Shown: one piece after another, positions 2,562-20,823 of the stretch | Position numbering within the stretch: position 1 is the first letter of the stretch | Layout: each line of letters opens with the position of its first letter | Assembly: GCF_015221995.1 (NCBI RefSeq) | Contig: NZ_JADFFM010000001.1 | Span: 1,364,001-1,428,000 of the forward strand | DNA length: 64,000 nt | From: Mucilaginibacter boryungensis | Lineage (GTDB): Bacteria > Bacteroidota > Bacteroidia > Sphingobacteriales > Sphingobacteriaceae | Reading direction: 5' to 3' | Program-made: the position numbers and the translations under genes | Notes under the pieces: generated by a model | Told to the model about the DNA's origin: nothing | Database searches by the model: none | The model's input: only the letters and a program-made list of their open reading frames with translations

Positions 2562-3374
2562 ATGAAAGTCGCCTTTATTTGTGTTAATTATAACAATTCA
2601 AAAATAACTCAAGAATATGTAAAAAGTGTTTTAAATATAAAAGGGAGCTATGAAGTTATTATTATAGTGGTGGATAATGCATCAGAAAAACATGACGTTC
2701 AGGCACTTGAGGAATTGAATCACTCACAAATGATTTTAATTAAAAGCCAAACTAATGTGGGATATTTTAAAGGATTAAACTTGGGCATACAGGCTATAAG
2801 GCCTAAGGAATTTGATTTTATATTTGTTAGCAATAATGATTTGACATTTGATGTTAATATTTTGAAAAATTTAGAGCAATTAAATATTGAAGATAGCACA
2901 TTAGTTTTAGCTCCTAATATTATCAGAATTGATGGTGTACACCAAAACCCGCATATTGTAAATAAGTTTTCAGCAATACAAAAGATATACAGAAGAGTTT
3001 ATTTTATGAATTATTACATTGCATCGTTCCTGCAGTTACTATATAACAGAATAAAACCCAGGTTAGTTTCTGAAGATAGGGTAGGGTATAACCAAACCCA
3101 AACGATACTTATGGGTTATGGAGCATGCTACATACTTACAAGTTTTTTTTTTAATTATTTTAAGGAATTAGATGCCCCCGTATTTTTAATGGGCGAAGAA
3201 GGTATTTTAGCAAACCAGGTATTAAGTGTGAATGGAACAACATTATACTGTCATGATTTGTTAGTTACGCATCATGACCATACCTCTATAGGAAAAGTTG
3301 GAGTCAAAAAAATGTATAAATACTCTAAACAGTCATATAAATATTATTTAAAATATTTAAAACATGTTCAATAA
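2562..3374 (+). CDS. Glycosyltransferase family 2
   Basis: A GT-A fold glycosyltransferase of 270 residues. The N-terminus MKVAFICVNYNNS is the usual first strand and nucleotide-binding turn of GT2 enzymes, VVDNAS follows near residue 37, and FVSNNDLTFD near residue 90 takes the place of the DxD metal-binding motif, with an NND form as in many rhamnosyl-type GT2 enzymes. No membrane helix is evident, so it is probably a cytoplasmic or membrane-associated enzyme adding one sugar to the lipid-linked repeat unit. Donor and acceptor cannot be told from the sequence. Confidence 0.88.
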   Translation: MKVAFICVNYNNSKITQEYVKSVLNIKGSYEVIIIVVDNASEKHDVQALEELNHSQMILIKSQTNVGYFKGLNLGIQAIRPKEFDFIFVSNNDLTFDVNILKNLEQLNIEDSTLVLAPNIIRIDGVHQNPHIVNKFSAIQKIYRRVYFMNYYIASFLQLLYNRIKPRLVSEDRVGYNQTQTILMGYGACYILTSFFFNYFKELDAPVFLMGEEGILANQVLSVNGTTLYCHDLLVTHHDHTSIGKVGVKKMYKYSKQSYKYYLKYLKHVQ

Positions 3375-3389
3375 CTAAACTTTGTTATA

Positions 3390-4337: not shown

Positions 4338-5434
4338 TGCAAATATCTTTCCGATTAAAACTGAGCAATACAATTCCATTATGCTTTATAGCTAATAATG
4401 AGTTACTTATTTCTAAAAGTAATATTATATATATATATAATATTGAAAGAAATTCTAAACGTAAGTTAACTACGTTGCCAATTAATATATATATCGCAAC
4501 AATTACAAGGTTTCGAATTTTAGCAAGAATTTTCAGACTTGGAGTACGGTACGCTATACCAATAGGCGATGATAAAGTACTGATAGTTTTCAACAAAAAA
4601 ATTTATGAGCTTAATATAATTGATGGTTCATTTTTTGAGACCTTAGATATTAAACGAGGGAATAGGCCACTAAATATTGCTAATATTAAAGATATAAAAG
4701 GCTTTACAAACGCTACTTGTTTCGGCGAGTATTTTTTTAACCCTAATAAAAGCCCCGTTCATATCTATTCAAGATCAAGTCAATCAAACTGGAATATTGT
4801 TTACACATTTCCCAAAGAAACAGTAGATCATGTTCATGCAATTATTCCAGACAACTATACTAACTGCGTATGGATATTAACTGGCGATTTTGAAAATGGG
4901 GCGGGTATATGGATGGCTCAAGATAATTTTAAAGTTGTTAAACCAATTTTAGTTGGCAAACAAATATACCGTGCTTGTGTTGCATATCCACAAAAGGAGG
5001 GGCTTATTTATGCTACTGATAGCCAATTTGAAACCAATTCTATTCGTTTACTTAAAAACACAGACAAGGGGTGGGTTTCAGAATTAATTTGTGAGATTAA
5101 TGGACCAGCGATATATGGTTGTAGGGTTAAAGATGATATATTTATTTCAACATCAGTGGAAGGAAACAGTTTATCTAAAGGTCGTTTGAAGATGTTTTTA
5201 GATCGTGAACCAGGGCCTGGTGTAAAAGATAATAAAGTGCATATTGTAGGGGGAAATATCTTAAAAGGATTTAAAACACTTAAAACAAATGAAAAAGATT
5301 TTTTTCCATTTCTTATTTTTCAGTTCGGTGTAATAGCTTTTCCAACGGGAGATAACAATTCTAGTTCTTTGATATCTTTTAATATAGGCTTAAAAAATAA
5401 TGATTTTGATACTGAAGTGTTTACAATAAATTAA
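4337..5434 (+). CDS. Unrecognised protein, beta-propeller-like
   Basis: I do not recognise a family with confidence. The 365 residues are strand-rich with repeated short blocks of the kind LLISKSNIIYIYN, VLIVFNKKIYEL, CVWILTGDF, EGLIYATDS and DIFISTSVEG, which suggests a six- or seven-bladed propeller resembling BNR/sialidase-type folds. There is no signal peptide or membrane helix, so it is probably cytoplasmic. The start ATG overlaps the stop of the AAC(3)-like gene, and the acyl carrier protein follows after 5 bases. The three genes look like one translationally coupled unit. Function unknown. Confidence 0.7.
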   Translation: MQISFRLKLSNTIPLCFIANNELLISKSNIIYIYNIERNSKRKLTTLPINIYIATITRFRILARIFRLGVRYAIPIGDDKVLIVFNKKIYELNIIDGSFFETLDIKRGNRPLNIANIKDIKGFTNATCFGEYFFNPNKSPVHIYSRSSQSNWNIVYTFPKETVDHVHAIIPDNYTNCVWILTGDFENGAGIWMAQDNFKVVKPILVGKQIYRACVAYPQKEGLIYATDSQFETNSIRLLKNTDKGWVSELICEINGPAIYGCRVKDDIFISTSVEGNSLSKGRLKMFLDREPGPGVKDNKVHIVGGNILKGFKTLKTNEKDFFPFLIFQFGVIAFPTGDNNSSSLISFNIGLKNNDFDTEVFTIN

Positions 5435-5439
5435 ATATT

Positions 5440-5682
5440 ATGATTAATAAAGACTTTTTTTTGAATGGACTAAAGGAGCAATTCGAAGAGGGTGATGCCG
5501 ATAGTTTAACATTTGATACTGAATTTGAAAGTTTGGATACATGGGACTCGTTAACACGATTTTCAATAATTGCATTTATAAACGATGATTATCAAATCAT
5601 AATTGGGCCGGACGATTTCAAAAAATTAAAAACTCCACAAGAAATTTTTGACTATATAAGTATCGAGCTTAATAACACCTAG
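5440..5682 (+). CDS. Acyl carrier protein, first of two in the locus
   Basis: An acidic 80-residue helical protein with the phosphopantetheine attachment motif WDSL; Ser37 is the expected attachment residue. Flanking features (LDTWDSLTRFSIIAFI, then a second helix ending in YISIEL) fit the ACP fold. It would carry a thioester-bound acyl group in the cytoplasm after modification by a phosphopantetheinyl transferase. Because it lies in a sugar locus, a specialised role apart from bulk fatty acid synthesis is likely. It closely resembles the second carrier protein at 11828 in length and motif. Confidence 0.88.
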   Translation: MINKDFFLNGLKEQFEEGDADSLTFDTEFESLDTWDSLTRFSIIAFINDDYQIIIGPDDFKKLKTPQEIFDYISIELNNT

Positions 5683-5755
5683 CATTTAGTTGTCAATATA
5701 AATGGTGGAATCCTTTGGCTTTATCACAATATATAATATTTTTTAATAAATTAAT

Positions 5756-6784
5756 ATGCTTAACAACAAAACCCTGTTAATAACCGGCGGCACCGGATCT
5801 TTTGGCAATGCAGTATTAACCCGTTTTTTGAACACCAACCATTTTAGCGAAATACGGATATTTAGCCGTGATGAAAAAAAACAAGATGATATGCGCAATC
5901 AATTGAAGAATGAAAAATTGAAATTCTACATTGGTGATGTGCGCGATTATTCAAGTATTGAAAAGGCAATACGTGGAGTAGATTATGTATTTCATGCAGC
6001 AGCACTTAAGCAAGTACCTTCTTGTGAATTTTTTCCATTGGAAGCTACTAAAACTAATGTTTTTGGTACGCAGAATGTTATTGATGCTTCTATCGCCCAT
6101 AAGGTAAAAAAAGTTATATGTTTAAGTACAGACAAAGCAGCATATCCTATAAATGCTATGGGGATTTCAAAGGCTTTAATGGAAAAAGTGGCTATAGCAG
6201 CATCCAGGAATATTACTGATAATGCTACCGTAATTTGCTTAACACGTTATGGTAATGTAATGGGGTCGCGTGGGTCTGTAATACCATTATTCTTAAAACA
6301 AATAAAGGAAGGTAATCCAATAACAATAACAGATCCTAATATGACTAGATTTTTAATGTCATTAGAAGAGGCTGTAGAATTAGTTTTATTTGCATTTGAA
6401 CACGGTAACCAAGGAGATTTATTTGTAAATAAAGCACCTGCTGGCACTATTGCCGATTTAGCTACAGCATTGAAGGAGCTATGTAAAGCAAACAGCAAAG
6501 TTAAAATAATAGGTACCAGACATGGCGAAAAATTATATGAAACTTTGTGTACAAGAGAAGAGATGAAAAAAGCTGAAGATATGGGCGATTTTTATAGGAT
6601 ACCTGCAGATAACAGGGATTTAAACTATAATCAATTTTTTTCCCAAGGTGAACTAGATATTTCAATGATCGAAGATTATCATTCACATAACACAGCACGA
6701 TTAGGCGTTGAGGGTATTAAATTACTTTTATCAAAATTACCAATAGTGAGGAAAGAAGTCTTAGGTGATAGTGAAGCTATTTAA
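5756..6784 (+). CDS. capE: UDP-GlcNAc 4,6-dehydratase/5-epimerase, CapE/FnlA type
   Basis: A soluble 342-residue extended short-chain dehydrogenase. The NAD-binding motif GGTGSFG lies at residues 11-17, and STDKAAYP with MGISK at 124-139 gives the Met/Lys active site of inverting 4,6-dehydratases, where Met replaces the usual Tyr. CapE converts UDP-GlcNAc to the 2-acetamido-2,6-dideoxy-L-arabino-hexulose intermediate, the first step toward UDP-N-acetyl-L-fucosamine. The next two genes are CapF-like and CapG-like, which makes this pathway assignment strong. The length is normal for the soluble type, in contrast to the membrane-anchored PglF-like gene at 18868. Confidence 0.92.
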   Translation: MLNNKTLLITGGTGSFGNAVLTRFLNTNHFSEIRIFSRDEKKQDDMRNQLKNEKLKFYIGDVRDYSSIEKAIRGVDYVFHAAALKQVPSCEFFPLEATKTNVFGTQNVIDASIAHKVKKVICLSTDKAAYPINAMGISKALMEKVAIAASRNITDNATVICLTRYGNVMGSRGSVIPLFLKQIKEGNPITITDPNMTRFLMSLEEAVELVLFAFEHGNQGDLFVNKAPAGTIADLATALKELCKANSKVKIIGTRHGEKLYETLCTREEMKKAEDMGDFYRIPADNRDLNYNQFFSQGELDISMIEDYHSHNTARLGVEGIKLLLSKLPIVRKEVLGDSEAI

Positions 6785-7042
6785 TATCCCTCGTAATATG
6801 GATAATAAATTTAAATACTCCGCTCTAGGATTAACCCGGACTGGCAAAGCTCCAAAATGAGTACATTACTAATTACACTAATAATTCGAATATCTCCAGG
6901 TTGATTTAGTAAAATATTTGAAGAAAAGCAAATCAACTAATAATATAAATCAACTGCTCAACTTTTCAATTTCATGAGGTGCCAATTTAATAAGACTTAT
7001 TATTATTGGTAAATAAGTAGGTTCATGTAACAAATATATATA
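6785..7042 (+). other. Non-coding gap inside the capE-capF pair
   Basis: A 258-base AT-rich stretch separates two genes that are normally adjacent. No open frame longer than about 25 codons with a start is present. One frame reads DLVKYLKKSKS before stopping, which looks coding-like and could be a remnant of a lost gene, but no family is recognisable. No clear promoter or terminator hairpin was seen. Confidence 0.4.
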
Positions 7043-8161
7043 ATGATTAAAATAGGTATTACAGGACAAAATGGGTTTATTGGACAACACTTATATAATA
7101 CACTTGGCTTATTCAAAGACGAGTATGAAAGAGTTGAATTCCGTCGGGATTTTTTTAAAGATGAAATTAAGTTAAAAGAATTTGTTGCCAAATGTGATGT
7201 TATTGTGCATTTAGCTGCCATGAACAGACATCCTGATCCTAGTACAATATATCATAATAATATCAATTTAGTTAAAAAATTAATTGATGCATTAAGCGCA
7301 ACAAATAGTAAAGCACATGTACTCTTTTCCTCATCTTCTCAAGAAGAAGGCGATAATTTATACGGTAAAAGTAAAAAGGATGGAAGAGAACTCTTATTCG
7401 ACTGGGCTCAGAAAGCAGAGGCTAATTTTACAGCAATGATAATTCCTAATGTATTCGGACCTTTTGGTGCTCCGAATTATAATTCATTTATAGCAACCTT
7501 TTGCCATAAAATTGTAAACGCCGAACAACCTCAAATTAATAATAACAGTAGTATAAAGCTTATATATGTTGGAAATTTGGTATCAGAAATAATTGAAATA
7601 ATTAAAAATGTACCTAAAACTAATTTAATAACAATACCTCACCATGATGAATATAAAGTTTCAGAAATATTAAACCTTTTGCAAGGGTATAAAAGCCAAT
7701 ACATGGATTTGGGCATTGTACCACTATTAAGAACGAAATTTGAGATTAATTTATTTAATACGTTTCGAAGTTATATTGATCTAGATAAATATTACCCTAT
7801 TAAATTAACTTCACACGCAGATGATAGGGGGGCATTTGTTGAAATTATAAGGTTGAACACTGGTGGGCAGATCTCATTTTCTACAACCTTTGCTGGCGTA
7901 ACTCGCGGTAATCATTTTCATACACGAAAAATAGAGCGGTTTGCTGTAATTAAAGGTAACGCATTGATTCAATTAAGAAAAATTGGTTCAAACACTACAA
8001 TCAATTTCCATCTTTCCGGTGATGAGCCTGCATATGTCGATATGCCAATATGGTATACCCATAATATAAAAAATGTAGGACGGGAAGATTTATATACTAT
8101 TTTTTGGATAAACGAATTTTTTAATCCTGAAGATCCAGATACTTATTTTGAAACGGTTTAA
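7043..8161 (+). CDS. capF: UDP-2-acetamido-2,6-dideoxy-hexulose reductase with cupin domain, CapF/FnlB type
   Basis: A two-domain, 372-residue enzyme. Residues 1-240 form an NADPH-dependent SDR domain starting with GITGQNGFIGQH. Residues from about 250 form a cupin domain with GNHFHTRKIERFAVIKG, whose histidines are the expected metal ligands. This architecture is characteristic of CapF, which epimerises C3 in the cupin domain and reduces C4 in the SDR domain to give UDP-6-deoxy-L-talosamine. It sits between CapE-like and CapG-like genes. Full length, no damage seen. Confidence 0.93.
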   Translation: MIKIGITGQNGFIGQHLYNTLGLFKDEYERVEFRRDFFKDEIKLKEFVAKCDVIVHLAAMNRHPDPSTIYHNNINLVKKLIDALSATNSKAHVLFSSSSQEEGDNLYGKSKKDGRELLFDWAQKAEANFTAMIIPNVFGPFGAPNYNSFIATFCHKIVNAEQPQINNNSSIKLIYVGNLVSEIIEIIKNVPKTNLITIPHHDEYKVSEILNLLQGYKSQYMDLGIVPLLRTKFEINLFNTFRSYIDLDKYYPIKLTSHADDRGAFVEIIRLNTGGQISFSTTFAGVTRGNHFHTRKIERFAVIKGNALIQLRKIGSNTTINFHLSGDEPAYVDMPIWYTHNIKNVGREDLYTIFWINEFFNPEDPDTYFETV

Positions 8162-8175
8162 ATAATATTACCAAC

Positions 8176-9321
8176 ATGATAAAAAAAATGAAAGTAATGA
8201 CGGTTGTTGGTACACGGCCAGAAATTATACGATTATCAAGAGTATTAATTGCATTAGACCAATCTGATGCTATCGATCATATTTTAGTGCATACAGGTCA
8301 GAACTATGATTATGAACTTAATCAAATATTTTTTGACGACATGAACCTGCCTAAGCCTGATTATTTTTTGAATGCAGCAGGGCAAACAGCAACTGAAACT
8401 ATCGGTCAAATATTAATTAATATTGACCCATTGCTAGAAAAAGTAAACCCCGACGCTTTTTTAGTACTTGGAGACACTAACAGTTGCCTTTGTGCTATTC
8501 CTGCCAAAAAACGACATATCCCAATATTTCATATGGAGGCGGGTAATCGCTGTTTTGATCAGCGTGTCCCTGAAGAAACTAATAGAAAAATAGTCGATCA
8601 TATCTCAGACATTAATTTAACATATAGTGATATTGCAAGAGAATATTTATTACGCGAAGGATTACCAGCAGACCGAATTATAAAAACAGGTTCACCTATG
8701 TTTGAGGTTTTAAATCATTATTTACCAAGTATTGAATCTTCAGATATTTTAAATAAGCTCAATTTAACAGAAAATCAATTTTTTGTAGTATCGGCCCATC
8801 GAGAGGAAAATATTAATGATGAGAAAAAATTTCAAAATTTAATGGAAAGCCTTAACATTGTAGCCGAAAAATATAAGTATCCTATAATCGTAAGTACACA
8901 TCCGCGCACGCGAAAAATGATTGAGAGCAAGCAATTAATCATGAAGCCTGAAATCCAGTTTTTAAAACCGATGGGCTTTATAGATTACAATGCATTACAA
9001 ATGGGATCATTTGCGGTACTTTCAGATAGTGGCACTATATCTGAAGAATCATCAACTTTAAATTTTCGAGCTTTAAATATAAGAGATGCGCATGAGCGGC
9101 CGGAAGCTATGGAAGAGGCTTCGGTTATGATGGTGGGGTTAAATACTGAGCGCATTTTGCAAGCTTTAAAACAACTTAAATACCAACAAATAGGTAAAGA
9201 CAGGAACTTTAGAAGGGTGGCTGATTACTCTATGCCTAACGTTTCAGAAAAAGTAGTGCGCATCATTATAAGTTATACCGATTATGTAAAACGAACGGTA
9301 TGGAGTGAAACAGGTAATTAA
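8176..9321 (+). CDS. capG: UDP-GlcNAc 2-epimerase family, CapG/FnlC type
   Basis: A 381-residue member of the WecB-like 2-epimerase family (GT-B fold). Visible signatures are TVVGTRPEIIR at the N-terminus, VHTGQNYDYELN near residue 40, HMEAGNRCFDQRVPEETNR near 118 and SDSGTISEESS near 284. After CapE and CapF, the expected reaction is C2 epimerisation to UDP-N-acetyl-L-fucosamine, not ManNAc formation. The start at 8176 has a plausible alternative four codons later at 8188 (MKVMTVVG). The stop overlaps the start of the next glycosyltransferase. Confidence 0.92.
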   Translation: MIKKMKVMTVVGTRPEIIRLSRVLIALDQSDAIDHILVHTGQNYDYELNQIFFDDMNLPKPDYFLNAAGQTATETIGQILINIDPLLEKVNPDAFLVLGDTNSCLCAIPAKKRHIPIFHMEAGNRCFDQRVPEETNRKIVDHISDINLTYSDIAREYLLREGLPADRIIKTGSPMFEVLNHYLPSIESSDILNKLNLTENQFFVVSAHREENINDEKKFQNLMESLNIVAEKYKYPIIVSTHPRTRKMIESKQLIMKPEIQFLKPMGFIDYNALQMGSFAVLSDSGTISEESSTLNFRALNIRDAHERPEAMEEASVMMVGLNTERILQALKQLKYQQIGKDRNFRRVADYSMPNVSEKVVRIIISYTDYVKRTVWSETGN

Positions 9322-10526
9322 TGAACATTATATTTTTAACTATTACACGGATAACAGGTATTTCAGAAAGAGGAATATACACAGACTTAATGCGTGAATT
9401 TCGAAATGAAGGGCATCAGGTATATATCGCTTGCCCAACAGAAAGGAAATACAAACAAAACACAAATTTAACAAAAGTAGATGGAGTTCATATTCTGAGT
9501 ATTAAAACTCTTAATATACAAAAAACAAGCCTGATTGAAAAGGGAATAGGTACATTATTATTAGAATCACAATTTTTAGAATCCATTAAAAAATACTATG
9601 ATAATGTGAAATTTGATTTGGTTATATATTCGACACCACCAATAACTTTTACAAAAGTTATTAGATATATTAAATACAAATACAGGGCGACTACGTATCT
9701 ATTACTCAAAGATATATTTCCTCAAAATGCAGTTGATTTAGGTATGATAAAAGAAAATGGGATCATACATAGGTACTTTAAAAATAAAGAAAAACGACTA
9801 TACAGTGTCTCTGATTATATTGGATGTATGTCGCCTGCTAATGTTGACTATATAACTTCACATAATAAAACAGAGGTTGGAAAAAAGGCAGAAGTTAATC
9901 CTAATAGTATTGAGCCATTTTTAAAAACTATTTCCAATGTCGAACGTATTGCTATTAGAACCCAATATAATATACCCTTAAATGATACAGTTTTTGCATA
10001 TGGCGGTAATTTAGGTAAACCGCAAGGAATTGATTTTTTAATTGATATATTGATACATAATAATAATAAGCCAGGCACCTTTTTTTTAATTGTTGGGGAT
10101 GGTACTGAATATTTAAGGCTAAAACTAAGTATAGACAAGCTAAAAAGCAAAAATATACTTTTGCTGAAAAACTTACCTAAGGCGAATTATGATCAATTGT
10201 TATTATCATGCGATGTAGGGCTTATTTTTTTGGATAAAAGGTTCACTATACCTAATTTTCCATCACGCCTTTTATCATATCTCGAATGCCACTTACCCGT
10301 TATTGCAGCAACTGATAGTAGTACAGATATTGGTGATACTATAGTCAAAAATAATTTTGGAACATGGTGTTTAAATGGAGATTTATCTGGATTTAATAAA
10401 TTAATTGCAGAGTATTGTGAAAATATAGCATGGCGACAAGAAATGGGCAATAATGGGAATAATTTTATGATGAAGAACTATTTGGTACAACAGTCCTATC
10501 AAACTATTATGAAGCATATGTTATAA
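9321..10526 (+). CDS. Glycosyltransferase family 4, WbuB-like (probable FucNAc transferase)
   Basis: A 401-residue GT-B glycosyltransferase. The N-terminus [11 protein letters not shown], the [12 protein letters not shown] segment near residue 97 and the C-terminal [21 protein letters not shown] block are typical of the WbuB branch, whose studied members transfer L-FucNAc. Since CapE, CapF and CapG just upstream would make UDP-L-FucNAc and the ATG overlaps the CapG stop (TAATG), this is the likely FucNAc transferase. The stop in turn overlaps the PglC-like start, so FucNAc may be the second sugar of the repeat unit. Donor specificity is an inference. Confidence 0.85.
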
Positions 10527-11131
10527 TGTATAAATGTTTTTTTAAAAGAGTGACAGATCTTACTTTAGCCATAGTAGGTATAGTCATATTATTTCCAATA
10601 TTGATTTGTACGGCAATTTGCTTACTTATTGGCAATAAAGGGAATGTGTTTTTTTTACAAGCCAGACCGGGACTAAACACGAAGATATTTAAAATAATAA
10701 AGTTTAAAACAATGAATGATAAAAGGGACGGTAAAGGGAACCTTTTATCGGATGCTGAACGCTTAACTCCGGTGGGAAAATTGGTCAGAAAGTTATCGTT
10801 AGATGAATTGCTACAATTAATAAATGTGATAAAAGGTGATATGAGTTTAGTTGGTCCTCGCCCGTTGTTGCCTCAATATATATCATTATATAATGAATTT
10901 CAATTAAGGAGGCACAATGTTAAACCAGGGATAACAGGGTGGGCACAAATAAACGGAAGAAACACAATAAGCTGGCAACAAAAATTTGATTTAGATGTTT
11001 GGTATGTTGAGAACATGTCCTTTTGGTTAGATTTGAAAATTATATTTTATACTTTTTTGAAAGTTCTTAAATCAGGAGATGTAAATGCAGGGGATAATGT
11101 TACCATGGATGCATTTAACGGCAATAATTAA
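10526..11131 (+). CDS. Phosphoglycosyl transferase, PglC-like (repeat-unit initiation)
   Basis: A small monotopic phosphoglycosyl transferase of 201 residues. It has an N-terminal hydrophobic helix (residues 10-35), FFLQARPGL and FKIIKFKTM around 42-62, the catalytic Asp-Glu pair at residues 93-94 within [19 protein letters not shown], and [13 protein letters not shown]. The size and motifs match PglC, which transfers a sugar phosphate (di-N-acetyl-bacillosamine phosphate in the model case) to undecaprenyl phosphate. The usual LDELPQ reads LDELLQ. The following PglD-like gene and the PglE-like gene at 15956 support a bacillosamine-type first sugar. Confidence 0.9.
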
Positions 11132-11170: not shown

Positions 11171-11821
11171 ATGACAAAATACGGTATATACGGCGCTGGT
11201 GCTTTAGGACAGGAGGTGTTTTTAAATGTTACTGATATACTTAAGCAACAAGGAAAAGAATGGGATTTTATCGGTTTTATTGATGATTCGTTGCCCCAAG
11301 GCACGGTAGTAAAATATGGGAAAGTTGCAGGTAATATTCATTTTTTGAATGCAGTTGCTTACAAATTGGAAATTATTATTGCGATAGGAAATACTATTGC
11401 AATACAAAATATTTACCAAAAAATTGATAATCCGAAAATCAGTTTCCCCAATATTATACATCCATCTGTTTCATATTTAAATAAAGATTCGGTTACTATG
11501 GGTAAGGGGAATGTGATTGGAATGTTAGGATTGGTTAGTTTCGACGTTAATATAGGAGATTTTAATATATTTAATACTAGGGTATCAATTGGGCATCATG
11601 TCCAAATAGGCTCATTTAATATTTTTCATCCTAATATTCAAATTTCCGGGAATGTTAAAATTGGCGACTCTAATACTTTTGGCTTTAATTCTGGTATAAT
11701 TCCTGCAAAAAAAATCGGCAATAAAAATACCTTTGGTCCCGGCTGCATTGTAACAAGGAATATTGCAAACGATAGTTTATATATTGGCAATCCTGCTCAA
11801 AAATTTAATTTTAATACTTAA
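11171..11821 (+). CDS. PglD/NeuD-family sugar N- or O-acyltransferase
   Basis: A 216-residue protein with a Rossmann-like N-terminal half (GIYGAGALGQEV, residues 5-16) and a left-handed beta-helix of hexapeptide repeats from about residue 98. His142/His143 in SIGHHVQIG line up with the catalytic base of PglD. PglD acetylates the C4 amine of UDP-4-amino sugars with acetyl-CoA. Here the gene is 6 bases upstream of an acyl carrier protein and a set of fatty-acid-type enzymes, so it may accept an acyl-ACP donor. That substrate is inferred only from position. Confidence 0.86.
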   Translation: MTKYGIYGAGALGQEVFLNVTDILKQQGKEWDFIGFIDDSLPQGTVVKYGKVAGNIHFLNAVAYKLEIIIAIGNTIAIQNIYQKIDNPKISFPNIIHPSVSYLNKDSVTMGKGNVIGMLGLVSFDVNIGDFNIFNTRVSIGHHVQIGSFNIFHPNIQISGNVKIGDSNTFGFNSGIIPAKKIGNKNTFGPGCIVTRNIANDSLYIGNPAQKFNFNT

Positions 11822-11827
11822 AATAAT

Positions 11828-12058
11828 ATGGATATAACAATTTTTGTTAAAAATTTTGCACTTCAGTTTGACGAAACAGAGCCTGAATTAATAACGAGCG
11901 ATACAAATTATAAAGATTTAGAAGAATGGAGTTCACTTACAGCATTATCAATTATCGCAATGGTAGATGAAGAATACGATGTGAAATTATCTGGAAATGA
12001 TATAAAGAACGCAACCTCTATAGTTGACTTATTTGAAATTGTAAAATCAAAAGTTTAG
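11828..12058 (+). CDS. Acyl carrier protein, second of two in the locus
   Basis: An acidic 76-residue ACP-like protein. The motif WSSL places the expected phosphopantetheine serine at residue 36, aligned with Ser37 of the carrier protein at 5440. Helices around it (LEEWSSLTALSIIAMV) fit the fold. It follows the PglD-like gene by 6 bases and precedes a ketoacyl-ACP synthase III by 7 bases, so it is very probably the carrier for the acyl group built by the downstream enzymes. It lacks the classic DSL triad, having SSL. Confidence 0.87.
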   Translation: MDITIFVKNFALQFDETEPELITSDTNYKDLEEWSSLTALSIIAMVDEEYDVKLSGNDIKNATSIVDLFEIVKSKV

Positions 12059-12065
12059 ACATATT

Positions 12066-13121
12066 ATGGCATTTTTAACTTTTCAAAATGTTAAATTAGA
12101 CGGAATCGCATCGAGTGTCCCTAAAAGTAAACAGAAGGTTGAGGATTGCCAATGTTTGACTAAAACTGAAGCTGAAAAATTATCAATAACGACAGGCATT
12201 TGGGAAAGAAGACTTGCTAATACAGATATTTGTACAAGTGATTTGTGCTTAGCCGCTGCTGAACAATTGATTAAGGATTTAAATTGGGAAAAGTCTTCAA
12301 TCGATGCATTAATATTTGTAACACAAACACCTGATTACATTTTACCATCTACTGCTCCGATACTCCAAGACAAATTAAATTTAAATAAAACCTGTTTAAC
12401 CCTAGATATATCACTCGGATGCTCAGGATATGTTTATGGACTAACAACTTTATGTGCATTGGTATCATCCGGATCAATAATGCGAGCATTATTATTAGTT
12501 GGTGATACAATTACTAAAATATGTTCTCCGCTTGATAAAAGCACTTATCCATTGTTTGGAGATGCTGGTTCAGCGACAGCTTTATCATATGATAAAAACG
12601 CTAAACCAATAAGTGCCAACCTTTACTCAGATGGAAGCGGTTCCGAAAGTATAATAGTAAAAGACGGGGCTTACAGAAACACAATAACTGAAGAATCTAT
12701 TAAAACAAAAAATATTAGTGAGGGGATACAAAGAAGCGCGAATCAATTAATGTTAGATGGAATGGATGTGTTTTCCTTCGGAATTAGCAAAGCGCCACAT
12801 GTGGTTAAAGAATTGCTTGGTAATTTAAATATAGAAACAAAAGATGTTGACTATTTTATTTTTCATCAAGCGAACAAGATGATGAATGACAAAATAAAAA
12901 AAAAACTAGCATTAACGGATGCGCAAGTACCATATTGTCTTGAAAAGTTTGGCAATACAAGTTGTGCAACAATTCCTTTAACTATTAGTACACAATTATC
13001 TGAAAATCTTAATGCGCAATCTGCCAAATTGATACTGTGTGGTTTTGGTGTTGGATTATCTTGGGGCGCTATGTATTTAGAGGTAGATTCGCTGGTTTGT
13101 TCACCTTTAATAGAACTATAA
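12066..13121 (+). CDS. Beta-ketoacyl-ACP synthase III (FabH-like), copy 1
   Basis: A thiolase-fold condensing enzyme of 351 residues with an intact catalytic triad: Cys119 in SLGCSGYVYG, His267 in FHQAN and Asn297 in FGNTS. KAS III enzymes condense an acyl-CoA with malonyl-ACP to give a 3-ketoacyl-ACP. The neighbours (own ACP, FabG-like reductase, Rieske oxygenase, second KAS III, amino-sugar enzymes) point to a dedicated short acyl group for a surface sugar and not to membrane lipid synthesis. The stop at 13119-13121 is 2 bases before the reductase start. Confidence 0.93.
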   Translation: MAFLTFQNVKLDGIASSVPKSKQKVEDCQCLTKTEAEKLSITTGIWERRLANTDICTSDLCLAAAEQLIKDLNWEKSSIDALIFVTQTPDYILPSTAPILQDKLNLNKTCLTLDISLGCSGYVYGLTTLCALVSSGSIMRALLLVGDTITKICSPLDKSTYPLFGDAGSATALSYDKNAKPISANLYSDGSGSESIIVKDGAYRNTITEESIKTKNISEGIQRSANQLMLDGMDVFSFGISKAPHVVKELLGNLNIETKDVDYFIFHQANKMMNDKIKKKLALTDAQVPYCLEKFGNTSCATIPLTISTQLSENLNAQSAKLILCGFGVGLSWGAMYLEVDSLVCSPLIEL

Positions 13122-13123
13122 TA

Positions 13124-13861
13124 ATGTTCAATTTACAAGATAAAAGAATTTTAATAACCGGAGGATCATCGGGCATTGGCAGACAGATAGCAATACATGC
13201 AGCTGAAAATGGTGCTATAGTTACAATATTAGGCCGCGATAAAAAAAGATTATCAGATGTGTTTACGGAATTAGCTGGCAAAGGGCATAATTTTTTTGCT
13301 TTAAATTTGACAAATGAGCAAGAGGTAACAACGTTTATAAAAAGCCAAAATACTTTTGATGGTGTAGTATTTAATGCAGGTATTGTTGAATATTCACCAG
13401 TAAAATTTTTAACAAATGAAAAAATTAAAACAGTTTTTGATATAAATTTTAATAGTACTGTTATATTAAGTCAGCAATTATTAAAGAATAAACTTATTGA
13501 AAAAAAAGGGTCATTAGTTTTTATTTCTTCTATTGCATCGGTTATAGGTATCGGTGGCACTGCATTATATGCAGCCTCGAAAGCAGCACTTAATGCATAT
13601 ACTAAAGTAATAGCGACAGAGACTGCTGCACAGGGAATTAGGGCAAATAGCATAAGTCCAGGTATAGTTATAACACCTATGACAGAACAGTCAATAAACG
13701 TATCGACTGATCGTAGTATGGATGATAAGGAAAAAGAATATCCGCTTGGATACGGTAAACCCGAAGATGTATCTGCACTAGCTGTTTATTTATTAAGCAA
13801 TGCAAGCAAATGGATGACAGGGTCAAATTTAATAATTGACGGAGGTCTGACACTAACTTAA
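13124..13861 (+). CDS. SDR oxidoreductase, FabG-like 3-ketoacyl-ACP reductase
   Basis: A 245-residue classical short-chain dehydrogenase: TGGSSGIG at residues 12-19, FNAG near 83-86, Ser136, and the YAASK motif with Tyr149 and Lys153, ending in IIDGGLTLT. A longer in-frame start at 13037 lies inside the upstream KAS III gene and would add residues with no SDR similarity; ATG 13124 gives the standard N-terminus. The likely reaction is NADPH-dependent reduction of the 3-ketoacyl-ACP from the adjacent synthase to a 3-hydroxyacyl-ACP. The substrate is inferred. Confidence 0.92.
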   Translation: MFNLQDKRILITGGSSGIGRQIAIHAAENGAIVTILGRDKKRLSDVFTELAGKGHNFFALNLTNEQEVTTFIKSQNTFDGVVFNAGIVEYSPVKFLTNEKIKTVFDINFNSTVILSQQLLKNKLIEKKGSLVFISSIASVIGIGGTALYAASKAALNAYTKVIATETAAQGIRANSISPGIVITPMTEQSINVSTDRSMDDKEKEYPLGYGKPEDVSALAVYLLSNASKWMTGSNLIIDGGLTLT

Positions 13862-13870
13862 TAGCCCTGT

Positions 13871-14947
13871 ATGAAATCTAATATATCTCCTGAATACTAT
13901 TACTCTGAATCAATTTTTCAGAAAGAAAAATTAATTTTTAAGAATCATTGGCATTTTTTTGGATTTAAAACACAACTTACTAAACATAACGATTATTTGA
14001 CCCGCACAATAGCGGATACTCCTGTGCTGGTACAAAATATAAAAGGTGAGATAATGGCTTTTTTAAATGTTTGTTCACATCGCTTTTCAATACTACAACA
14101 AGAAGCAAGTGGCAACAGACCATTAGTTTGTCCATACCATGGGTGGTCATACAACCAGGACGGTATACCTACAGGAATACCTAAAAAACCATTATTTCAA
14201 AATTTTTCAAGTAATGAGCTTTGCGAATTAAGTTTAAAAAGTTATCAAATTAGTTTTTGCGGTAATTTATGTTTTGTGAATTTAAGTAATTCAAAACATT
14301 CATTAAATGATTATTTAGGGGATTATTTTAATGAGCTTGAAGATTTGTCTCTTTCTACCCAAGAAATGATAGACATTAATCAACTTGATATAAAAGCGAA
14401 TTGGAAAATCATAGTTGAAAATACACTTGAAAGTTATCACGTAGGCTTAATTCATACCAATACTTTTAAGAAACTGGGAGCAAGCGGATTGAATTTTAAT
14501 TTTACATCTTTCCATTCAAGTTGGGATGCAGATTTACTTATAAAACGAACAGATGATTCTTTAAAGAAAATTGAAAATATTTTTGCCCCACGTAAATATT
14601 ATATTAATGGATATAAACATTTTTTAATTTTCCCCAATTTATTAATCTCCACAACCCATGGGAGCTCATATAATTTTTCATTAATTGAACCATTGAGCCC
14701 CAACGAAACACGTTTTAATAGCTATGTTTTTTTGGCTTATATTAAAGATGATGCAAAAAGGGCATTCGTCTCAGCTTATAAGCAAACAGTTATAGAATTT
14801 AATAGAGAGGTTTTTGGAGAAGATAAAGCCATTTGTCAATTAGTTCAAAAAGGAGTAAATCATACTAATCTTTCGGGTGTTTTAAGTTTAGAAGAAGAAC
14901 GTGTACATGCATTTCAAAATACTTATATAAAATTAATACAGAAATGA
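13871..14947 (+). CDS. Rieske-type non-haem iron oxygenase, alpha-subunit-like
   Basis: A 358-residue protein with both halves of a ring-hydroxylating oxygenase alpha subunit. The Rieske [2Fe-2S] ligands are Cys68, His70, Cys87 and His90 (CSHR and CPYHGWSY). The mononuclear iron site has Glu187, His190 and His195 in ESYHVGLIH, with Asp318 a likely third ligand. No reductase or ferredoxin gene is nearby, so electrons must come from elsewhere. Lying between FabG-like and KAS III genes and overlapping the latter by 4 bases (ATGA), it probably hydroxylates or oxidises the acyl chain or the sugar. The actual substrate is unknown. Confidence 0.9.
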   Translation: MKSNISPEYYYSESIFQKEKLIFKNHWHFFGFKTQLTKHNDYLTRTIADTPVLVQNIKGEIMAFLNVCSHRFSILQQEASGNRPLVCPYHGWSYNQDGIPTGIPKKPLFQNFSSNELCELSLKSYQISFCGNLCFVNLSNSKHSLNDYLGDYFNELEDLSLSTQEMIDINQLDIKANWKIIVENTLESYHVGLIHTNTFKKLGASGLNFNFTSFHSSWDADLLIKRTDDSLKKIENIFAPRKYYINGYKHFLIFPNLLISTTHGSSYNFSLIEPLSPNETRFNSYVFLAYIKDDAKRAFVSAYKQTVIEFNREVFGEDKAICQLVQKGVNHTNLSGVLSLEEERVHAFQNTYIKLIQK

Positions 14948-15951
14948 AGGCTAACATTAAAGCGATTTCTTATTATTTACCTGAACAAATTTTAGATAAT
15001 GTTCTAATAAATGAGATATTTCCAGAATGGTCAATAGATAAAATATCAAACAAAACCGGGATATATAAAAGACATATTGCGGACAAAAATGAATTTGCCT
15101 CAGATATGGCAATAAAGGCAGCTACGCAATTGTTTGATGAATATAAAATCTTACCTTCTGAAATTGATTACATTTTACTGTGTACGCAAAGCCCAGATTA
15201 TTTTTTACCCACAACCGCTTGTATTGTACAGCATAAATTAGGGATACCCACAACTGCGGGAGCGCTGGATTTTAATTTAGGGTGTTCTGGCTATGTATAC
15301 GGATTAAGCCTAGCCAAGGGTCTTATAGCCGCTAATATTGCTAATAACGTTTTGCTCATTACAACAGAAACTTACAGTAAGTATATTTATGACAAAGATA
15401 AAAGCAATAGGACAATTTTTGGCGATGCCGCATCTGCTTCCCTTATATCATCATCTGGAGAAGGACTAACTATTGCAGATTTTGTTTTAGGTTCGGATGG
15501 CAGTGGCGCCGAAAACTTGATAGTTAAACGCGGTGGAGCAAAGTATCCTGTTAATATTACGGAGAATATAATTAAAGATGAATATGGAAATGAGCACAAC
15601 GAGAATAATTTATATATGAACGGCTCTGAAATATTTAATTTTACTAGCCAGGCTGTCCCACAGTTGGTTCATTCTACCCTTCAAAAAAATAATCTTTTAA
15701 TAAGTGATATCAATCTGTTTATTTTTCATCAAGCTAATAAATATATGCTTAATCATTTACGAAAAAAAATTGGCATTGAAGAGAATAAATTCATGTATCA
15801 TCTTGAAAACTGCGGCAATACGGTATCCTCAACCATACCAATTACGTTAAAAGAAGCTTTAACCCAATTAATTATTAAACCACAAATGTCTATAATGCTC
15901 GCTGGGTTTGGCGTAGGTTATTCTTGGGGCGGTGTGGTTCTGAAATCTTAA
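14944..15951 (+). CDS. Beta-ketoacyl-ACP synthase III (FabH-like), copy 2
   Basis: A second complete KAS III of 335 residues with Cys114 in LGCSGYVYG, His262 in FHQAN and Asn292 in CGNTV. It shares the general pattern with copy 1 (both have QTPDY or QSPDY and CSGYVYG) but is clearly diverged, so this is not a recent tandem duplicate. The start overlaps the Rieske gene stop by 4 bases, implying coupled translation. Two synthases with two carrier proteins could serve two condensation rounds or two separate acyl groups. It could also act as an acyltransferase, as some KAS III homologues do. Confidence 0.92.
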   Translation: MKANIKAISYYLPEQILDNVLINEIFPEWSIDKISNKTGIYKRHIADKNEFASDMAIKAATQLFDEYKILPSEIDYILLCTQSPDYFLPTTACIVQHKLGIPTTAGALDFNLGCSGYVYGLSLAKGLIAANIANNVLLITTETYSKYIYDKDKSNRTIFGDAASASLISSSGEGLTIADFVLGSDGSGAENLIVKRGGAKYPVNITENIIKDEYGNEHNENNLYMNGSEIFNFTSQAVPQLVHSTLQKNNLLISDINLFIFHQANKYMLNHLRKKIGIEENKFMYHLENCGNTVSSTIPITLKEALTQLIIKPQMSIMLAGFGVGYSWGGVVLKS

Positions 15952-15955
15952 ATAT

Positions 15956-17092
15956 ATGAATTCTAAAATATGGCTTTCCAGTCCGCATATGGGTGGTGCA
16001 GAACACCAATTTGTACAAGAAGCTTTTGATACGAATTGGGTGGCACCATTGGGGCCGCATGTTGATGGATTTGAAAAGGATTTGTCAGACTTTTTAGGAG
16101 GCAATCAACACGTCGCAGTATTAAGCTCAGGAACAGGCGCGTTACACTTAGCCTTAGTTATGTTAAATATTGGGCCCACTGATGAGGTTTTCTGTCAAAG
16201 CATGACTTTTTCGGCATCAGCAAACCCAATAAAATACGTTGGGGCTACCCCGGTTTTTATCGATAGTGAAAAAGATACATGGAATATTGATCCTAACTAT
16301 TTAGAGGATGCTATTAAAAACCGAATAGCAGATGGTAAAAAGCCGAAAGCAATTATAGTGGTGCATTTGTATGGAATGCCTGCAAAAATGAAGGAGATAA
16401 CTGAAATTGCTGGTAAATATGAAATACCAGTAATTGAAGATGCCGCCGAAGCCTTAGGATCGCATATTAATGGACAAATGTGTGGTACAATGGGTACAAT
16501 GAGCATATTATCATTTAATGGAAACAAAATAATTACTACGTCGGGTGGCGGCGCCTTGGTATCATCAGACAAACAATATATTGATATGAGCAAGTTCTTG
16601 GCTACACAGGCACGAGACGATGCGCCGCATTATCAGCACTCGCACATCGGTTATAATTACCGTATGAGCAATATTAGCGCAGGCATAGGTCGCGGGCAAA
16701 TGCAAGTGCTCCCCAGCAGGATAAATAAAAGGCGCGATATATTTGATCAATATGTAACCCACTTTGGAGGGGCGCCTGGTGTTAGTTTTTTAGAAGAACC
16801 GAAAGGATTTTTTAGTAATCGCTGGTTATCGACCTTAACAATAGATCCATTAAAAGCCAATGGTGTTACCCGTGAAAAGTTAAGGCTTGCACTATTTGAA
16901 AATAATATTGAATCGAGGCCCCTATGGAAGCCAATGCATTTACAGCCTGTTTTTAAAAACTGTTTATTTTTTGGAAACAATGTATCCGATAAATTGTTTG
17001 AAAATGGATTGTGTTTACCATCCGGGTCGAATCTTTCAGATAATGACTTGGAGCGGGTGTTCACTATAATGAAAGCAACATTCAGGTTTTAA
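15956..17092 (+). CDS. DegT/DnrJ/EryC1-family sugar aminotransferase (PglE-like)
   Basis: A 378-residue PLP-dependent aminotransferase. SSGTGALHLAL near residues 57-67, EDAAEALGS at 161-169 and the PLP lysine Lys191 in SFNGNKIITTSGGG are all present. The N-terminus (LSSPHMGG, FDTNWVAPLGP) is typical of PglE-like enzymes that aminate C4 of UDP-4-keto-6-deoxy-GlcNAc using glutamate. With the PglF-like dehydratase at 18868, the PglD-like and the PglC-like genes, it completes a bacillosamine-type route. It follows KAS III copy 2 by 4 bases, which ties the acyl module to this amino sugar. Confidence 0.92.
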   Translation: MNSKIWLSSPHMGGAEHQFVQEAFDTNWVAPLGPHVDGFEKDLSDFLGGNQHVAVLSSGTGALHLALVMLNIGPTDEVFCQSMTFSASANPIKYVGATPVFIDSEKDTWNIDPNYLEDAIKNRIADGKKPKAIIVVHLYGMPAKMKEITEIAGKYEIPVIEDAAEALGSHINGQMCGTMGTMSILSFNGNKIITTSGGGALVSSDKQYIDMSKFLATQARDDAPHYQHSHIGYNYRMSNISAGIGRGQMQVLPSRINKRRDIFDQYVTHFGGAPGVSFLEEPKGFFSNRWLSTLTIDPLKANGVTREKLRLALFENNIESRPLWKPMHLQPVFKNCLFFGNNVSDKLFENGLCLPSGSNLSDNDLERVFTIMKATFRF

Positions 17093-18867: not shown

Positions 18868-20823
18868 ATGTTAAATAGAATGAATATTGTGCCCCGATGG
18901 ATCATCTTTTTCTTAGATATATTTTTTTGTACAATATCTCTAATATCAGCTCACGCTATTAGTAATAATTTTGAACTGAGCCATCTTGATTACAACTTAT
19001 TAAATAAAATATTATTTACTTTCCTGATTATCAACTGCATAGTGTTTACCATGCTCAAAACTTATTCAGGTATTGTAAGATACACCAGTGGTCAGGACTC
19101 TGTTCGAATATTATTTTCAGTGTTGATTAGTAATGTAGCATTTTATATAATATCGAAATCGTCATTGCTTGCTGATGTTGCATTAAGCCGGATAGAGCAG
19201 GTAATAATTATAAATGTGCTGTTTAGCTTTGTATTACTTATAAGTTATCGGTTAATGGTAAAATATATGTTTAGCTATATAAATAATTTGAAACTTAATC
19301 AAAAACGTGTTATTATTTATGGGGCTAACGAAACTGCAATAACCACTAAACGTATTCTGGATCAACAGGGAACTGGACTAAATATGAATATTGTGGCGTT
19401 CATAGACGAAGATGAAAGGAAGCGTGGGAAGAAAGTTGATAATATCAGAATATACCAATTAGCTGACATTGAAAAAATTATTATTTCGGAGAGGATTAAT
19501 GAGTTAATTATTGCTCAGGCGGACGTTGATATTAATATAAAAAATACCATAGTTGATATATGCTTAGTACACAATGTACGCGTTTTGAATATTCCGCCAA
19601 TAACAAATTGGATAGGCGGGCACCTTAATCCAAGCCAACTTCAAAACATAAAAATTGAGGATGTTTTAGAAAGGGAACCTATACAAGTAAATAATGTGCT
19701 TATCGATCAGCAAATACATGGTAAAAACATATTGGTTACGGGCGCTGCAGGATCTATCGGTTCTGAATTGGTTAGGCAATTAATACAATACCAGCCTGCT
19801 GTAATTATTTTAAATGATATTGCCGAAACAGCTTTACACGAGTTACAATTAGAACTGGAAGATGCTGGACATGAAAATAGTAGCTTTATTACATTTATAG
19901 GGGATGTGAGAAATGCGGAAAGAATGACCTTGTTATTTGAAACGTATACTCCTAATTATGTTTATCATGCAGCTGCTTATAAACATGTGCCAATGATGGA
20001 GAATAACCCATGCGAGGCTATTAATACCAATGTATTAGGGACTAAAAATATTGCCGATTTATCTATGCGATATGGTGTAGATAAGTTTGTAATGATCTCT
20101 ACCGATAAGGCTGTTAATCCAACAAATGTAATGGGGGCCTCAAAGCGTATTGCCGAAATGTATGTGCAATCTCTTATCGATTTTCATTCCAATGATAATA
20201 TTATCATTAACAATGGGATGAGTATAATGACTGATAAGATTAAAGGGAAAAAACGTACTAAATACATTACTACCCGGTTTGGTAATGTGTTGGGATCCAA
20301 TGGGTCGGTAATACCAAGGTTTAAAGCACAAATACAAAAAGGTGGTCCCATTACTGTAACGCACCCCGAAATAACACGTTATTTCATGACTATACCCGAA
20401 GCTTGTCGTTTAGTACTTGAAGCGGGATCTATGGGAAGTGGAGGCGAGATATATTTGTTTGATATGGGTAAATCGGTAAAAATAGTTGATTTAGCCAAAA
20501 AGATGATCCGTCTATCAGGCTTTGTGGTTGACCAGGATATTAAAATCACTTTTACTGGTTTAAGACCTGGGGAAAAGCTTTATGAAGAGTTATTGAACGA
20601 TGCAGAAAATACTATGCCTACGCATCACGAAAAGATAATGATAGCTAAGGTGCGGAAACAATCGTACATGCAAATTAACAAGCATGTTAACGAATTGATT
20701 TCACTTTCAAGCATGTATAATGACCATATAGTAGTAAGAAAAATGAAAGAAATTGTGCCGGAATATAAAAGCAACAATTCCATATTTGAGGAATTTGATG
20801 TGGAAATCCCGGTGGCGCTATAA
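18868..20823 (+). CDS. Membrane-anchored NDP-sugar 4,6-dehydratase, PglF/CapD-like
   Basis: A 651-residue protein with about four N-terminal membrane helices (to residue 125), a Rossmann domain (RVIIYGANETA near 147) and a C-terminal SDR dehydratase domain with VTGAAGSIGSELVRQL near 290. The active site STDKAVNPTNVMGASK carries the Asp-Lys and Met/Lys arrangement of PglF-type dehydratases. It probably converts UDP-GlcNAc to the 4-keto-6-deoxy sugar used by the aminotransferase at 15956. Length and layout are normal for the family. A rho-independent terminator follows the stop. Confidence 0.92.
   Translation: MLNRMNIVPRWIIFFLDIFFCTISLISAHAISNNFELSHLDYNLLNKILFTFLIINCIVFTMLKTYSGIVRYTSGQDSVRILFSVLISNVAFYIISKSSLLADVALSRIEQVIIINVLFSFVLLISYRLMVKYMFSYINNLKLNQKRVIIYGANETAITTKRILDQQGTGLNMNIVAFIDEDERKRGKKVDNIRIYQLADIEKIIISERINELIIAQADVDINIKNTIVDICLVHNVRVLNIPPITNWIGGHLNPSQLQNIKIEDVLEREPIQVNNVLIDQQIHGKNILVTGAAGSIGSELVRQLIQYQPAVIILNDIAETALHELQLELEDAGHENSSFITFIGDVRNAERMTLLFETYTPNYVYHAAAYKHVPMMENNPCEAINTNVLGTKNIADLSMRYGVDKFVMISTDKAVNPTNVMGASKRIAEMYVQSLIDFHSNDNIIINNGMSIMTDKIKGKKRTKYITTRFGNVLGSNGSVIPRFKAQIQKGGPITVTHPEITRYFMTIPEACRLVLEAGSMGSGGEIYLFDMGKSVKIVDLAKKMIRLSGFVVDQDIKITFTGLRPGEKLYEELLNDAENTMPTHHEKIMIAKVRKQSYMQINKHVNELISLSSMYNDHIVVRKMKEIVPEYKSNNSIFEEFDVEIPVAL

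Follow-up and report, generated by a model that had tools for sequence, protein, structure and literature searches.

The seven-gene run at positions 11171-17092 of a 64,000-nucleotide stretch of the Mucilaginibacter boryungensis genome (contig NZ_JADFFM010000001.1, positions 1,364,001 to 1,428,000 of the forward strand; hereafter the window) is a recurring new form of the acyl carrier protein (ACP)-dependent module for amino-sugar N-acylation, to which a Rieske non-haem iron oxygenase has been added. The run encodes a PglD-like transferase, an ACP, two ketoacyl-ACP synthases of the KAS III family, termed KSa and KSb, a FabG-like short-chain dehydrogenase/reductase (SDR), the Rieske enzyme and a PglE-like aminotransferase. 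Directly seen are its gene content, the conservation of its active-site residues and the association of this Rieske type with acyl modules. On balance, we favour a cluster for O-antigen or another surface glycan in which an N-acyl group would be built on the ACP and placed on UDP-QuiNAc4N, the Rieske enzyme hydroxylating the chain, probably while it is ACP-bound, to give a more hydroxylated N-acyl group.

Distribution of the Rieske Oxygenase and of Two-Synthase Modules

Conserved co-occurrence of these gene families, the check proposed in the first-pass annotation of this DNA, was surveyed in 395 genomes of the phylum, which we take to be Bacteroidota, and in 249 genomes of one genus (g29), presumably Flavobacterium; G478 is counted in both surveys. 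The homologues are not scattered at random in the sampled genomes. The KSb profile matched 20 of the phylum genomes and 22 of the genus genomes, and the KSa profile 27 of the same 395. KSa and KSb matches together come from 56 different genomes, and the neighbourhood of each was inspected. Three genomes cut by contig ends (G627, G535 and G565) were left out, giving 53 modules; G411, at a contig start, was retained, since ACP and SDR genes lie side by side there. A further KSb locus of G817, separate and with no Rieske gene, was left out of the counts. The 53 modules comprise 22 with both KSa and KSb, five with two synthases of one type and 26 with a single synthase. A Rieske gene is present in 17 of the 22 (window included) versus none of the 31 others (0/5 and 0/26). 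The Fisher test gives p = 8e-10 for this contrast when kinship is ignored, and p = 9e-6 when a locus shared between genomes is counted once (8/13 vs 0/30, before G495 was added).

The reverse survey, with the Rieske sequence as query, gave the same picture. At E <= 1e-25, 26 of the 395 phylum genomes match. The four strong matches (E <= 2e-48), one of which is the window, all lie in modules with both KAS III types, and the other 22 have E >= 4e-35. No KAS III or ACP gene was found within 1.5 kb on each side of these 22 background loci, in 16 kb at four of them, or near nine further Rieske loci of another scan; some background loci have an SDR gene and one has a PglE-like open reading frame (ORF). 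In the genus, 19 of 249 genomes match at E <= 1e-30; all 14 strong matches (E <= 1e-83) lie in modules, one in each of 14 genomes out of the 16 with both synthase types, and the six weak ones (six genomes, E >= 3e-38) have no KAS III/ACP module as neighbours. Among 201 genomes of the window's own family, only its own matches at E <= 1e-30. In the 395-genome and 249-genome samples, no Rieske gene of this type was seen outside a module. The Rieske oxygenase is a genuine recurring part of such modules, and its clade has been found in module context in 17 sampled genomes (own included), on one gammaproteobacterial contig and, less surely, in glycosylation islands of Azospirillum. Chance or artefact was rejected as an explanation, the ORFs being intact and the module recurring in the surveys.

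A single-KSb module of another genome (G570, L086 6470-7294) carries a PhyH-family dioxygenase (PF05721) and a methyltransferase; the former may be another kind of oxygenase with a comparable role.

Phylogeny and Natural Contrasts

The 21 module Rieske sequences, those of Azospirillum and of the gammaproteobacterial contig (L032) included, are split from 22 background Rieske sequences with support 100/99, and from 30 background sequences, in a short search, with an SH-like approximate likelihood ratio test (SH-aLRT) value of 98. Long branches were flagged in these trees, and the split between module and background is more secure than the placement of Azospirillum and L032. N-terminal over-extensions of mechanically called ORFs were trimmed beforehand; a duplicate Rieske fragment of G628 was left out of both Rieske trees, bg_L031 out of the second one, and the truncated sequences of G627 and G535, the second KSb of G817 and one of the two of G524 out of the KSb tree. 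Long branches and open forks flagged by the tree tool remain. An ordinary degradative Rieske enzyme caught by accident was rejected on the basis of the tree separation and of the background loci without KAS III or ACP.

In the synthase tree, KSb forms one side. Because KSb is the sole synthase of 16 modules among the 53, it is presumably able to start a chain. The KSa clade of the window stands mostly beside a second synthase, which is either KSb or (G316, G336, G340 and G396) an enzyme of the KSa branch that is otherwise single. G220 is an exception, and the KSa of G683, G817, G740 and G748 belong to another KSa subclade. From this pattern, we infer that KSb would be the starter and KSa the extender.

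One genome of the window's family, G035, offers a natural contrast: it has the same run as the window (FnlA-FnlB-FnlC-glycosyltransferase-PglC-PglD-ACP-SDR-KSb-PglE-PglF) without KSa and Rieske genes, and the KSb of the two are sisters (support 100/98). Proteins shared by the two clusters are 54-82% identical, but PglD, the most diverged, only 30%. Among surveyed modules, the PglD of the window is nearest (40-43%) to its counterparts in four modules with two KAS III, those of G396, G336, G340 and G493. Such a pattern would be expected if the acyl group had changed.

A second contrast comes from one locus of the genus, present in ten genomes with two Rieske types. Between the two groups, Rieske (32%) and SDR (41%) have diverged, versus 89% identity for KSb, 91% for ACP, 84% for the aminotransferase, 77% for KSa and 73% for the transferase; Rieske and SDR change jointly and stand in opposite order. 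This joint change fits two enzymes acting in sequence, and with it an alternative in which the Rieske enzyme would oxidize the acyl chain in another way, by desaturation, cyclization or formation of a keto group, the SDR perhaps acting on the product. Rieske oxygenases are known to perform desaturation and C–C bond formation (PMC12445004). The SDR need not act on a Rieske product, since the SDR of G035, 65% identical to that of the window, serves a module devoid of both Rieske and KSa, and we regard this alternative as rather unlikely.

The Rieske Oxygenase

The residues that define the family (C68, H70, C87 and H90 of the Rieske centre, in the C-X-H / C-X2-H pattern, H190, H195 and D318 of the 2-His-1-Asp site, and the bridging E187) are kept in all 21 module sequences, window included. 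By profile, the nearest solved relative is CntA (6y8j, E 1.9e-39); with the window sequence alone as query, other Rieske oxygenases stand above CntA. An AlphaFold model (8 alignment rows) reached a mean predicted local distance difference test score (pLDDT) of 61.6, with residues 185-227 below 50, and nothing was drawn from it on the pocket. Compared with the Protein Data Bank, the predicted fold matches Rieske alpha subunits generally; IadD/E and stachydrine demethylase head the list, and CntA is met from rank 12 onwards.

In CntA, according to passages of the structural work, Tyr203 binds the quaternary ammonium group, with Glu205 as the bridge between the centres, and the enzyme is expected to hydroxylate the carbon beside the ammonium of carnitine (PMC7948474). 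Some group V Rieske oxygenases are described, in the passages considered, as having a Cys-X-X-Cys pair beside the iron (PMC10952381). The window enzyme has the bridging glutamate and the same metal ligands as CntA. It differs in its lack of the Tyr203 aromatic residue, of the Cys-X-X-Cys pair and of a reductase neighbour, and in its ACP/KAS III context. At the Tyr203 position it has T185, this position being T, V or A in 21/21 module enzymes and Y or F in 21/22 background ones. S188 and V191 replace the cysteine pair; E-C-Y-H-C is found in 8/9 enzymes of the second module type. A quaternary-amine oxygenase is disfavoured by the absence of an aromatic residue at the Tyr203 position, and the window protein is a CntA-like enzyme that lacks the quaternary-amine determinant.

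Known Precedents

Part of this layout is familiar. In viosamine-type islands, FabH-like, FabG-like and ACP proteins provide a short hydroxyacyl group with a C4 chain for an amino sugar, and these islands are not known to include a Rieske enzyme. In Flavobacterium psychrophilum, Cisar et al. (2019) studied the R1 O-polysaccharide and assigned wfpC and wfpE to two ketoacyl-ACP synthases, wfpD to an ACP, wfpF to a reductase and wfpG to a PglD homologue; passages of this work propose that wfpC-wfpG make the 3,5-dihydroxyhexanoyl group seen by nuclear magnetic resonance on Qui2NAc4N, where it sits on N-4, and credit the full chemistry to MacLean et al. (2001) (PMC6519341). Both systems comprise two KAS III, one ACP, a ketoacyl-ACP reductase and a PglD homologue, and both lie in a QuiNAc4N/L-FucNAc cluster with PglC, PglE and PglF homologues, three L-FucNAc genes and a WbuB homologue. 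They differ in the additional, putatively chain-modifying Rieske enzyme of the window, encoded at 13871-14947 between SDR and KSb, and in gene order as judged from the wfp lettering. This lettering suggests for F. psychrophilum the order of G748 (PglC-KSb-ACP-KSa-SDR-transferase-(PglC-like ORF)-PglE), which has no Rieske gene; in G683, G817 and G740 the order is PglC-KSb-ACP-KSa-Rieske-SDR-transferase-PglE.

A second KAS III, which had been put forward in the first-pass annotation as going beyond known systems, is already precedented because wfpC and wfpE of F. psychrophilum are two such synthases; the Rieske enzyme is not described there. The module layout is mostly known, and the Rieske enzyme alone goes beyond this precedent. 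The novelty also claimed for the Rieske enzyme stands with respect to F. psychrophilum, with the restriction that a similar gene set appears, uninterpreted, in a table of Xanthomonas genes (PMC3826837). According to passages of that article, genes for a Rieske protein, an acetyltransferase, two SDRs, one 3-oxoacyl-ACP synthase, an ACP and an aminotransferase stand in a row in the flagellar cluster (XCV2007-XCV2013); these rows are present in many of the tabulated genomes, the passages do not interpret them, and the word "glycosylation" is absent from the main text (PMC3826837). Compared by the gene names of the table alone, XCV2003-XCV2013 has the Rieske/acetyltransferase/SDR/ketoacyl synthase/ACP/aminotransferase set of the window and is perhaps, by analogy, an acyl module for a flagellin glycan.

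In the open literature, which leaves subscription journals mostly outside, no title or abstract was found that describes a Rieske enzyme in surface-glycan biosynthesis, and "trihydroxyhexan" does not occur among the matches listed. A mention of "Rieske" in one candidate article refers to a respiratory protein (PMC9478572). The main text of Rochat et al. (2017) contains none of six queried terms (PMC5601056).

Related Modules Beyond the Phylum

The gammaproteobacterial contig, from a metagenome-assembled genome (CAISUE010000044.1), encodes aminotransferase-ACP-KSa-SDR-Rieske-hexapeptide transferase-KSb, with a Rieske enzyme 37% identical to that of the window, and was the sole module among the 10 loci of its scan. 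In a plasmid collection, 53 records match the Rieske query at E <= 1e-20; 15 are from Azospirillum, three of which were inspected (stretches L071, L072, L073 and L137). In strain Sp7, the Rieske gene (33%) lies beside genes for a KAS III, two SDRs and a GNAT transferase, and further on are pseG, pseI, ACP genes, a second KAS III gene and a flagellin gene. The Azospirillum KAS III, SDR and Rieske genes lie near nonulosonate or other sugar genes (pseudaminate, NeuB). The Xanthomonas and Azospirillum cases widen the link between Rieske enzymes and acyl modules.

Organization of the Module and of the Surrounding Cluster

The first-pass description of seven tightly packed genes of these families was borne out by the ORFs, all intact and on the + strand, and by their domains. 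The gaps along the run are 6, 7, 2, 9, -4 and 4 bp, and the Pfam matches are PglD_N and hexapeptide, PP-binding, ACP_syn_III (twice), SDR, Rieske and Ring_hydroxyl_A, and DegT/DnrJ (Table 1). The accompanying statement that key active-site residues are intact holds for the Rieske ligands and for the Cys-His-Asn triads of both synthases (C119/H267/N297 in KSa and C114/H262/N292 in KSb), and needs qualifying for the ACP, in which W-S-S-L stands where D-S-L is usual, a serine replacing the aspartate before the attachment serine. W-S-S is also present in the ACPs of five related modules (G035, G397, G493, G795 and G706), with W-N-S in others; decay of the ACP was rejected, W-S-S being a recurring variant across related modules. 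The ACP is 54-59% identical to those of G478, G369 and G401 and 23% to that of L032. The Y-x3-K motif of the SDR, whose start is the ATG at 13124 (a mechanical GTG start at 13037 was corrected), and the lysine of the aminotransferase are visible in the sequence.

Table 1. Predicted genes of the N-acylation module and of its surroundings in the window.
Feature	Coordinates	Strand	Basis
AAC(3)-family transferase	3390-4337	+	PF02522
365-aa ORF	4337-5434	+	without Pfam, NCBIfam or PHROG matches
Second ACP	5440-5682	+	PF00550
L-FucNAc genes FnlA, FnlB, FnlC	5756..9321	+	FnlB: NF047837 (WbcJ) 260.8 bits, under cut-off 500; FnlA, FnlC by inspection
Glycosyltransferase, WbuB-like by position	9321..10526	+	54% in G035, 52% in G628; name by analogy with PMC6519341
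PglC-like initiating phosphosugar transferase	10526..11131	+	PF02397
PglD-like hexapeptide N-acyltransferase, predicted acyl-ACP:UDP-QuiNAc4N acyltransferase	11171..11821	+	PF17836/PF00132
Dedicated ACP, 76 aa	11828..12058	+	PF00550, 21.2 bits (cut-off 20.8)
KSa (KAS III type a), predicted to extend the chain	12066..13121	+	PF08541/PF08545, KS tree
FabG-like SDR, predicted 3-ketoacyl-ACP reductase	13124..13861	+	PF13561
Rieske non-haem iron oxygenase, alpha subunit only, 358 aa	13871..14947	+	PF00355 + PF00848
KSb (KAS III type b), predicted to start the chain	14944..15951	+	PF08541/PF08545; 3gwa 330.5 bits
PglE-like UDP-4-keto-sugar aminotransferase	15956..17092	+	PF01041
PglF-like UDP-GlcNAc 4,6-dehydratase, membrane form	18868..20823	+	ORF; family by inspection

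The PglD-like transferase combines, as do the PglD/PerB/VioB-type N-acetyltransferases, a PglD N-terminal domain with hexapeptide repeats, its nearest solved relative being VioB (7txp). It differs in that it falls under the cut-off of the sugar acetyltransferase family NeuD/PglB/VioB (TIGR03570, 140.8 bits against 160.8) and in its donor, which would be an acyl-ACP and not acetyl-CoA. The aminotransferase also scores below a family cut-off (TIGR04181, LegC family, 382.5 bits against 420); its best solved matches are 1o61 (310.7 bits) and 4ztc (308 bits), titled merely "aminotransferase" and "aminotransferase homolog" in the Protein Data Bank, which we take to be PglE of Campylobacter jejuni.

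The L-FucNAc genes, the WbuB-like glycosyltransferase gene and the PglC-like gene lie upstream of the module, and the PglF-like dehydratase gene downstream. FnlA, FnlB and FnlC are 80, 63 and 82% identical to their counterparts in G035, and the PglF-like protein is 56 and 42% identical to those encoded beside the modules of G035 and G493. Because of the PglC-like, PglF-like and L-FucNAc neighbours and of the proximity of the aminotransferase to 1o61 and 4ztc, the sugar acylated is most likely UDP-QuiNAc4N. This context and the F. psychrophilum parallel support the first-pass proposal of a dedicated ACP/KAS III/SDR module whose short acyl product goes onto the amino group of a bacillosamine-type sugar, here the one at position 4. 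Natural-product clusters often contain KAS III and Rieske genes, and the ACP, KAS III and Rieske proteins could in principle make a free small molecule, their genes merely being located inside a glycan cluster. With the PglD-like transferase and the aminotransferase encoded in the same tight run, and a PglD-, hexapeptide- or GNAT-type transferase kept beside the module in many relatives, this alternative is highly improbable.

The window shares 45-11131, from flippase-like and polymerase-like genes to PglC, with G628, a genus g29 genome of another family, at 52-85% identity; the flippase-like and polymerase-like genes are presumptive, being named by inspection. This likeness suggests, from sequence comparison, that the locus was transferred and its acyl genes exchanged, the module of G628 carrying the second Rieske type, unlike the window. 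In G628 (L134 5266-10434, L121), the module is followed by further genes, for a third KAS III, another SDR and a 410-aa ORF, which perhaps provide an additional round of elongation. The trio formed by the AAC(3)-family transferase, the 365-aa ORF and the second ACP is conserved there at 59, 56 and 58% identity, with KSb directly after the ACP; the 365-aa ORF has no match in Pfam, NCBIfam or PHROG. The 3390-5682 region may encode an additional acyl-transfer unit, which would serve another sugar.

Proposed Pathway

In the following scheme, we infer the order of the synthases and, for the Rieske enzyme, its substrate, the stage and position of its action and its product. KSb would join acetyl-CoA and malonyl-ACP, and reduction by the SDR would give 3-hydroxybutyryl-ACP. 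Extension by KSa with malonyl-ACP would lead to 3-oxo-5-hydroxyhexanoyl-ACP, which the SDR would reduce to 3,5-dihydroxyhexanoyl-ACP. The Rieske enzyme, with electrons from a general ferredoxin-type reductase, would then hydroxylate the chain, probably on the ACP, at C-4 or C-2, leading to a trihydroxyhexanoyl group. The PglD-like enzyme would transfer this acyl group onto N-4 of UDP-QuiNAc4N, itself produced by PglF and PglE. Finally, the PglC-like enzyme would start the lipid-linked unit, to which L-FucNAc would be added. Carnitine is a 3-hydroxybutanoate; C-4 is weakly preferred as hydroxylation site, by analogy, because CntA is expected to act beside the ammonium of carnitine and the proposed substrate is also a 3-hydroxyacyl chain. 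An oxidized C6 acyl group is the best reading of the product.

The acyl chain is argued to be the Rieske substrate because related Rieske enzymes accompany different amino-sugar genes: those of QuiNAc4N type, a DesI-like aminotransferase gene (best match under cut-off) and, in Azospirillum, pseudaminate and NeuB genes. The same diversity of sugar genes, together with the constant presence of an ACP/KAS III module beside the strong Rieske matches in both surveys, argues against an action after transfer, on the UDP-sugar, the lipid-linked sugar, the polymer or the sugar ring itself. The stage is not fixed by the present data and hydroxylation of the ring would also add 16 mass units, but we consider an action after transfer unlikely, somewhat more so than another type of chain oxidation.

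Several observations weigh against oxidation of an ACP-bound C6 chain. Five of the 22 modules with KSa and KSb (G397, G795, G493, G477 and G748) have no Rieske gene, and the Rieske enzyme is for this reason an optional part of two-type modules. The product could accordingly be the known 3,5-dihydroxyhexanoyl group, the Rieske enzyme having no effect or only a slight one; the word "oxygenase" is, moreover, absent from the main text of the F. psychrophilum study, as is "fabH" (PMC6519341). Conservation of the Rieske ligands throughout the module sequences, and of the gene itself though its place in the module shifts, speaks for a working enzyme and makes this outcome improbable.

Kinship also inflates the counts, ten of the 17 Rieske modules sharing one locus, and the independent-pairs test, with four usable pairs (2.3 in agreement, 0 in disagreement and 1.7 without difference), is not significant. 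The joint change of Rieske and SDR in the genus may be one recombination of neighbours without functional coupling. The correspondence of wfpC with KSb and of wfpE with KSa comes from gene-name order only, and the literature yielded no glycan chemistry for any Rieske-bearing strain. In Azospirillum 4B and B510, one KAS III gene was seen, about 4 and about 6.5 kb from the Rieske gene, and the tree places every Azospirillum KAS III with the KSa side; the Xanthomonas row, by its tabulated gene names, has a flagellar setting and one KAS III versus the two of the window. The rule of "both KAS III types" is not general, and in settings with one KAS III the Rieske enzyme would act on a shorter or different chain. 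Finally, no gene for a CntB-like reductase is adjacent, and neither of the two PF00175 proteins of the genome is encoded in the window. One of these two, encoded about 1 Mb off (G000:C1, near 325 kb), has FAD, NAD and Fer2 domains, and we take it to be PaaE-like.

Implications for Surface-Glycan Biosynthesis

More broadly, and more tentatively than for the window itself, a dedicated Rieske clade might hydroxylate ACP-bound, short polyketide-like chains during surface-glycan assembly, before their amide linkage to amino sugars. The Rieske-reductase pair would then be a swappable, antigen-diversifying cassette, with related systems acting on other amino sugars, O-antigens and flagellins and in other phyla.

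If the proposed pathway is correct, oxygenase tailoring would be added to the biosynthesis of bacterial surface antigens, and Rieske enzymes would gain a probable carrier-bound aliphatic substrate. A gene rule for the N-acyl group would also follow, in which one KAS III would mean a C4 hydroxyacyl, two a C6 dihydroxyacyl and two with a Rieske enzyme an oxidized C6 group, with computed residue masses of about 272.14, 316.16 and 332.16 Da, respectively, against 228.11 Da when the sugar carries two acetyl groups. The joint change of Rieske enzyme and reductase at a fixed locus suggests a route by which antigenic variety may arise, the rest of the locus remaining unchanged.

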